A stretch of DNA of 44,712 bases from Thermoplasmata archaeon (GTDB lineage: Archaea > Thermoplasmatota > Thermoplasmata > Lutacidiplasmatales > UBA184), in contig JASHPZ010000086.1 of NCBI GenBank assembly GCA_030037815.1, positions 1-44,712 of the forward strand, written 5' to 3'. The notes under the pieces were generated by a model, which did no database searches, was not told the DNA's origin, and saw only the letters and a list, made by a program, of their open reading frames with translations. Both the position numbers and the translations under genes were made by a program. This document shows positions 9,047-44,316 of this stretch, in pieces (within the stretch, counting starts at the first letter, position 1; every line of letters starts with the position of its first letter).

Positions 9047-9124
9047 CGGCGTCGTCGCGCGTTTTCGCCGTCAGCGCGCGCGCCCGCGAAGGCCTTAATA
9101 GAACGGGCTACTCCCCCGCGCCGC

Positions 9125-9229
9125 AGCGGGGTAGGGTAGTCAGGAAAGCGTCCGACCGGTGGTCGGACGTCCTGAAATCCCGACGGGCTCATAACCCGTA
9201 GATCCATGGTTCAAATCCATGCCCCGCTA
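9125..9229 (+). tRNA. Initiator tRNA-Met (CAT) interrupted by a 30-nt intron (9147..9176) in the D-loop
   Basis: Exons join to AGCGGGGTAGGGTAGTCAGGAA|ATCCCGACGGGCTCATAACCCGTAGATCCATGGTTCAAATCCATGCCCCGCTA; A1-T72 pair and GGG/CCC anticodon stem typical of initiators. Confidence 0.9.
9147..9176 (+). other. Non-canonical archaeal tRNA intron (D-loop, between positions 20a and 21)
   Basis: Intron AGCGTCCGACCGGTGGTCGGACGTCCTGAA; central helix CAGG(9141-44)/CCTG(9171-74), bulges AAA(9145-47) and AAA(9175-77), inner hairpin CGTCCGACC-GGT-GGTCGGACG. Confidence 0.85.
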
Positions 9230-44074: not shown

Positions 44075-44175
44075 GCAGGTGTAATCTAGCGGTAGGATGT
44101 CAGCCCTCCAAGCTGACCGCCCGGGTTCGAATCGGGGAAGGGCGCCCCTTCCTCGCGGATCTCCCGGCACCTGCA
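44075..44175 (+). tRNA. tRNA-Gly (TCC) interrupted by a 30-nt intron (44132..44161) in the T-loop
   Basis: Exons join to GCAGGTGTAATCTAGCGGTAGGATGTCAGCCCTCCAAGCTGACCGCCCGGGTTCGAA|TCCCGGCACCTGCA; acceptor GCAGGTG/CACCTGC, T-arm CCGGG-TTCGAAT-CCCGG restored only after intron removal. Confidence 0.92.
44132..44161 (+). other. Non-canonical archaeal tRNA intron (T-loop, between positions 59 and 60) with strict BHB motif
   Basis: Intron TCGGGGAAGGGCGCCCCTTCCTCGCGGATC; outer helix CCGGG(44121-25)/CCCGG(44163-67), central helix TTCG(44126-29)/CGGA(44156-59), bulges AAT(44130-32) and TCT(44160-62), inner hairpin CGGGGAAGGG-CGC-CCCTTCCTCG. Confidence 0.9.
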
Positions 44176-44232
44176 TCGTCCGCCCGCGGGCCGACGCGAG
44201 GTTTATTCCCGCCGGTCCCGGTACGCGGCTGC

Positions 44233-44316
44233 GCTGAGGTAGCCTAGTCCGGCAAGGCGCCAGCCTTGAAAGCTGGTGGCGGCGACGCCACGGGAGTTCA
44301 AATCTCCCCCTCAGCG
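44233..44316 (+). tRNA. tRNA-Ser (TGA)
   Basis: Acceptor GCTGAGG/CCTCAGC with G73, anticodon arm CCAGC-CTTGAAA-GCTGG, long variable arm TGGCGGCGACGCCA, T-arm GGGAG-TTCAAAT-CTCCC. Confidence 0.95.

Follow-up and report, generated by a model that had tools for sequence, protein, structure and literature searches.

The window, i.e. the whole stretch of 44,712 nucleotides that was analysed, carries an initiator tRNA gene (iMet) at positions 9125-9229 on the forward strand. This segment matched the Rfam tRNA model with 54.7 bits (E 3.5e-9), with 37 nt placed in the D-loop. ARAGORN, run without introns, made no call at 9125-9229, and returned a tRNA-Met(CAT) of 75 nt when 9147-9176 was deleted. Removal of exactly these 30 nt thus restores a normal tRNA-Met, as is characteristic of bulge-helix-bulge (BHB) introns. 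The marks of an initiator are an A1-U72 pair, a CAU anticodon and three G-C pairs at the base of the anticodon loop, read in AGCGGGG..CCCCGCTA and GGGCTCATAACCC; the anticodon arm (GGG-CTCATAA-CCC) is of the initiator type. The intron is located in the D-loop, between positions 20a and 21 (the '20/21' site). The features of the locus are listed below, where a caret marks a predicted cut.

9093..9101, plus strand: TATA-like CCTTAATAG, 24-32 nt upstream of the iMet gene, read in the sequence
9125..9146, plus strand: 5' exon of tRNA-iMet (CAU), A1 to position 20a, with CAGGAA at its end (Rfam alignment)
9141..9144, plus strand: 5' strand of the BHB central helix, CAGG, with G18 and G19 (each position paired in 46-48 of 48 relatives)
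9145..9147, plus strand: 5' bulge AA^A, predicted cut after 9146 (register from a relative with AA^C)
9147..9176, plus strand: intron, 30 nt, D-loop 20a/21 (removal restores tRNA-Met; junctions conserved in relatives)
9148..9170, plus strand: inner hairpin of the intron, 9148-9157 pairing with 9161-9170, 10 bp, loop GGT (minimum free energy fold)
9171..9174, plus strand: 3' strand of the BHB central helix, CCTG (pairing in relatives)
9175..9177, plus strand: 3' bulge AA^A, predicted cut after 9176 (register from relatives with AG^A; fold)
9177..9229, plus strand: 3' exon of tRNA-iMet, A21 to discriminator A73, CCA not encoded (Rfam alignment, relatives)

The initiator tRNA gene and its intron

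The predicted fold of the pre-tRNA combines the intron hairpin, the CAGG/CCTG helix and the cloverleaf arms (minimum free energy -55.8 kcal/mol, z -6.7 versus shuffles). The 4-bp central helix lies between two 3-nt bulges, as in a BHB motif. The motif departs from the strict hBHBh' form, with a T/T mismatch followed by a 3x3 internal loop beside the 3' bulge. This bulge sits in an internal loop, as no outer helix forms beside it. The motif is accordingly relaxed and HBh'- or BHL-like.

GAAA flanks both sides of the intron, and hence five cut registers lead to an identical mature product. The ambiguity is broken by one relative with CAGGAA^C and two with CTGAG^A, which place the cuts after the second A of each bulge; the spliced junction would read CAGGAAATCCCGACGGGCTCATAACCCG. 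The first-pass annotation had described an initiator tRNA split by a D-loop intron, with these helices, bulges and cuts and with a weak outer helix. The Rfam match, the ARAGORN call after removal, the fold and the register-breaking relatives all bear this description out. The upstream CCTTAATAG is a possible box A promoter of the gene, judging from its sequence.

A second initiator was not found in the 1.565-Mb genome. The anticodon loop sequence CTCATAA occurs at four places, and the idea of a hidden second initiator was rejected, since the other three are not tRNAs. The elongator tRNA-Met is a separate gene with a canonical intron (G000:C38), as it is in the near-complete genome G042. The assembly is 89% complete in 94 contigs, and the distribution among relatives therefore matters for the claim of a sole initiator.

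Distribution of non-canonical introns in Lutacidiplasmatales

The same insert with the same junctions was present in 63 of the 106 genomes searched in Lutacidiplasmatales, spread over three genera of one family. Within the genus of the window, 54 of 78 genomes carried it (53 recovered by the first pattern, plus G029 with a 32-nt intron); the other 24 gave no initiator match in either form and stand outside the intron/intronless count. The two sister genera had the intron in 4 of 6 and 5 of 6 genomes (9 of 12 together). Four other genera of the family, as well as the sister families f2 and f3, have an intronless iMet gene. None of the 106 genomes of the order had both forms, in line with the earlier claim that this is the only initiator type. 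Contigs with the intron belong, among others, to the assemblies AcS4-93, AcS5-58, SubAcS13-64, SubAcS15-31 and UBA184, which have been placed in Lutacidiplasmatales (Thermoplasmatota, acidic soils; PMC9287336). The host had rightly been presumed to belong to Thermoplasmatota.

Two patterns were applied across the phylum. The first stops at 27-nt introns and hence showed only intronless genes, while the second covers longer introns; both miss initiators departing from AGCGGGNTNGGG, and families f4, f33, f34 and f42 remained unscored. An intron at the same D-loop position of iMet was found in three further families of the class (G409, G439, G442). In L207 (G146:C2:26465-26700), an intact intronless iMet gene has a degenerate initiator copy, itself with a D-loop insert, immediately upstream; this copy is possibly a pseudogene remaining after intron loss. 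Archaeal initiator tRNAs were also encountered on contigs labelled Acidobacteriaceae (JASIAO010000353, L084) and 'bacterium' Centralia_MAG_577 (L086), which are probably mis-binned.

Several other tRNA genes carried introns as well. At least 13 of the approximately 36 tRNA genes found in the genome of the window have introns at non-canonical sites, mostly at 59/60 in the T-loop. Using R1, a covariance model of such genes built from a six-sequence alignment, we found T-loop introns in the genes for Glu(CTC), Arg(TCG), Arg(TCT), His, Ala(GGC), Lys(TTT), two Gly(TCC), Ser(CGA), Ser(GGA) and Ser(GCT). Besides iMet, Arg(GCG) has a D-loop intron. R1 replaced a simple T-loop intron pattern that was too noisy in AT-richer genomes; it also matches ordinary tRNAs at lower scores, and intron-bearing genes are recognised by the length of the match. 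The window itself contains a second gene of this kind:

44075..44175, plus strand: tRNA-Gly(UCC) with a 30-nt T-loop intron at 59/60 (44132-44161; R1 66.3 bits)

Removal of 44132-44161 restores tRNA-Gly(tcc), and the BHB of this intron is near-canonical. Together with tRNA-Ser(UGA) this gene forms a pair (44075-44316) that recurs at G000:C66:12-259, at the start of a 5.6-kb contig, where the intron sequence differs from the window copy. The repeated pair is either a real duplication or a strain variant in the assembly. Furthermore, tRNA-Lys(UUU) at G000:C45:5117-5256 (L383) apparently has two introns, in the D-loop and the T-loop.

A comparable set was found in G042, where 13 of approximately 40 tRNA genes had non-canonical introns (11 with a T-loop intron, Arg(GCG) with a D-loop intron, and iMet). 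A single rule, to cut after 59 and before 60, restored a five-pair T-stem in 44 of 44 genes from eight genomes, and ARAGORN then gave the expected tRNA, except for genes with a further intron. T-loop introns also occur in G006, from a genus with intronless iMet, in G001 (f2) and in G003 (f3). Those of G001 measure 13-14 nt and often share their gene with a 37/38 intron; its tRNA-Arg(CCG) (L347, G001:C22:61976-62094) seemingly has three introns (D-loop, 37/38 and T-loop). Applied to the whole order, R1 gave its strongest matches listed (at least 88 bits, approximately 100-107 nt, intron-bearing) exclusively in family f1, and among the matches listed the strong ones were spread across the sampled kinds of genus in that family. 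The D-loop intron had been regarded as an unusual case. With the same intron in three genera, and at least 13 genes with non-canonical introns in this genome, this view did not hold.

Most T-loop introns have a near-canonical motif, with a centre of 3-4 bp, 3-nt bulges and the 5-bp T-stem as outer helix. They pair with T54T55C56 and position 57, just as the CCTG of the iMet intron pairs with exon CAGG holding G18G19. Both classes thus pair with the most constant letters of the exons, which suggests that one kind of intron could settle in many tRNAs.

The splicing endonuclease and predicted processing

A single gene in the genome of the window encodes two tRNA_int_endo domains (PF01974) in one frame, and nearly all relatives likewise gave two domain matches. 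Aligned to solved EndA structures, the 354-aa protein comprises two complete units; the epsilon2 form, with three units (alphaN-alpha-betaC), was not encountered. Its second unit has the catalytic Y/H/K (segments FKYG, AHFR and RVAQGVRK), and residues align with R280 and K287 of A. fulgidus, which act in bulge and substrate binding (PMC12397907). An insert of the CSL/ASL type, with a Lys before the LxLSL strand of the catalytic unit, is absent; the segment that holds this insert in broad-specificity enzymes is here YGSRVGDRLELSL, which matches A. fulgidus without gaps. Chain 3p1y, which we take to be an A. fulgidus EndA engineered to carry a loop, diverges exactly at this segment. Across the order, the segment was present in 34 of 35 loci, and no such insert was seen in any of the 34. 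By sequence, EndA is of the alpha'2 type without a loop. Within its non-catalytic N-unit, residues 107-122 (L225) contain a strictly conserved VLPRGG..P..YW that is shortened in A. fulgidus and might stand in for the CSL/ASL loop.

The iMet gene is very probably a sole initiator gene with a conserved BHB intron that belongs to a lineage-wide set of non-canonical introns and is spliced by alpha'2 EndA and RtcB. After transcription of the gene, the intron CCTG would pair with exon CAGG around G18G19 to form the relaxed BHB. Both AAA bulges would then be cut behind their second A by the single two-unit EndA, leaving RtcB to join CAGGAA to ATCCC. The iMet intron is almost certainly spliced.

This assignment would conflict with an accepted rule. 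Intron diversity in archaeal tRNAs is considered to have co-evolved with the type of endonuclease, with alpha'2 enzymes keeping to canonical introns (PMC4090602, PMC4033280, PMC12397907). Euryarchaeota mostly have alpha4 or alpha2 enzymes and few introns, at the canonical site only (PMC4090602). Korarchaeum cryptofilum, described as the only archaeon that combines an alpha2 enzyme with non-canonical introns, likewise has a two-unit EndA, but its enzyme is reported to have a specific loop that is lacking here (PMC4033280). Alpha'2 enzymes without the loop are described as strict (PMC12397907) and are rated poor on relaxed motifs (PMC6379350, PMC12397907). Even so, the alpha'2 enzyme of A. fulgidus is reported to remove BHL introns from full pre-tRNA (PMC6379350), and homodimers are stated to cleave BHL-like motifs (PMC8707768). 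The EndA of Ferroplasma acidarmanus (288 aa versus 354 aa here), which is used in biotechnology, is of the homodimer type and cleaves a minimal BHB (PMC8707768).

In the reviews, relaxed or non-canonical introns go together with CSL/ASL-loop enzymes of the (alpha-beta)2 or epsilon2 type (PMC6379350, PMC12397907), and splicing might accordingly involve a second subunit or helper that escaped detection. We consider this unlikely, given the one tRNA_int_endo gene of this genome and the two domain matches in nearly all relatives. The first-pass annotation had expected a broad-specificity endonuclease, and the enzyme found is instead a single loop-less EndA of the alpha'2 type.

Because their motif is near-canonical, most T-loop introns might be cut even by a strict enzyme, so that their position alone would be unusual. 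The iMet intron is the harder case, since its adjoining outer helix is missing. An order-wide reading of loop-less splicing thus depends chiefly on iMet and other relaxed cases like it. On balance we lean towards such a reading, in which the whole order has non-canonical introns in about one third of its tRNA genes, the sole initiator of three genera among them, and relies for their splicing on an alpha'2 EndA that never gained the loop. If true, it would break the accepted rule, by which these introns could spread only once the enzyme had gained a specificity loop or a heterotetrameric form. The clade offers a natural test, with sister genera that share the same enzyme and differ in the initiator intron; if the enzyme alone cuts these precursors, the loop rule is wrong or incomplete.

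Conservation of the intron and comparison with other archaea

The predicted excision from iMet can be weighed against the possibility that the insert is kept in the mature tRNA as an extended D-arm. Its hairpin is indeed very stable, and we compared 48 distinct iMet genes. Their spliced exons occur in three versions, one of which is shared by 42 genes, and the 5' exon is invariant except for A/G at position 9. Intron lengths range from 27 to 32 nt, and the intron sequences differ as well. The intron structure cells were paired in 94.8%, against 88.8% in shuffled alignments and at most 49.7% when the partner was slid by 1-3 columns. Cells changed on both sides numbered 29 versus 7.8 in shuffles, and none of 500 shuffles reached any of the measures; the shuffle test may be inflated by relatedness, which the slid control preserves. 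The inner helix covaries, with double changes in 7 of 8 scored pairs, while the central helix is nearly fixed. The junction tetranucleotides and the AAA bulges stay constant as the hairpin sequence drifts. Moreover, intronless sisters have the spliced form. In tRNA structure G18G19 contact the T-loop, and a retained insert would leave them locked in the central helix, unable to meet it. Retention is thus very unlikely.

Even less credible is a pseudogene or decayed duplicate with the true initiator on a missing contig. Although the assembly leaves room for such a contig, the near-invariant exons and covarying hairpin imply a conserved intron rather than a pseudogene or artefact, and an intronless copy was found in none of the 63 intron-bearing genomes. 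An assembly or binning error, conceivable for a source in 94 contigs, has a negligible chance, as the intron was recovered from many genomes that different studies had assembled separately, some of them in as few as 5 and 7 contigs. Retention, pseudogene and assembly error were all rejected on conservation, covariation and recurrence. With excision as the preferred reading, translation initiation in these species sits behind a splicing step, and intron-blind tools undercount their tRNAs.

Non-canonical BHB introns are a known kind, and what appears new is their extent in Thermoplasmatota and their occurrence with an alpha'2 enzyme. Among the papers searched, largely non-subscription ones, none was found that describes these introns in Lutacidiplasmatales; an earlier description, or a listing in tRNA databases, may exist. 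Introns at 20/21 and 59/60 are known mainly from Crenarchaeota and Nanoarchaeota (PMC4090602), and share with the present ones the sites, the BHB-type motif, the 3-nt bulges and the occurrence of one or more per gene; here, in contrast, the host is a thermoplasmatote with a loop-less alpha'2-type enzyme. Initiators also depend on splicing in Nanoarchaeum equitans (trans-split at 37/38) and Thermofilum pendens (permuted at 59/60), with other sites and other enzyme types (PMC3218864). Ferroplasma acidarmanus, like the present host, belongs to Thermoplasmatota.

In this analysis, iMet genes of Nitrososphaeria were also found to have a D-loop intron. It differs in length (14-24 nt), is apparently cut before G18G19 (CAG..GGTCATCCC) and lacks the long hairpin; thaumarchaeal splicing enzymes are reported to be heterotetrameric (PMC3218864). 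The two iMet introns are likely independent. D-arm inserts of various kinds were furthermore observed in initiator-like genes of Woesearchaeota, Hadesarchaea, a Lokiarchaeon and other archaea (L071, L078, L085, L108, L109, L140, L160, L169). Disruption of iMet looks widespread, and has probably arisen repeatedly.
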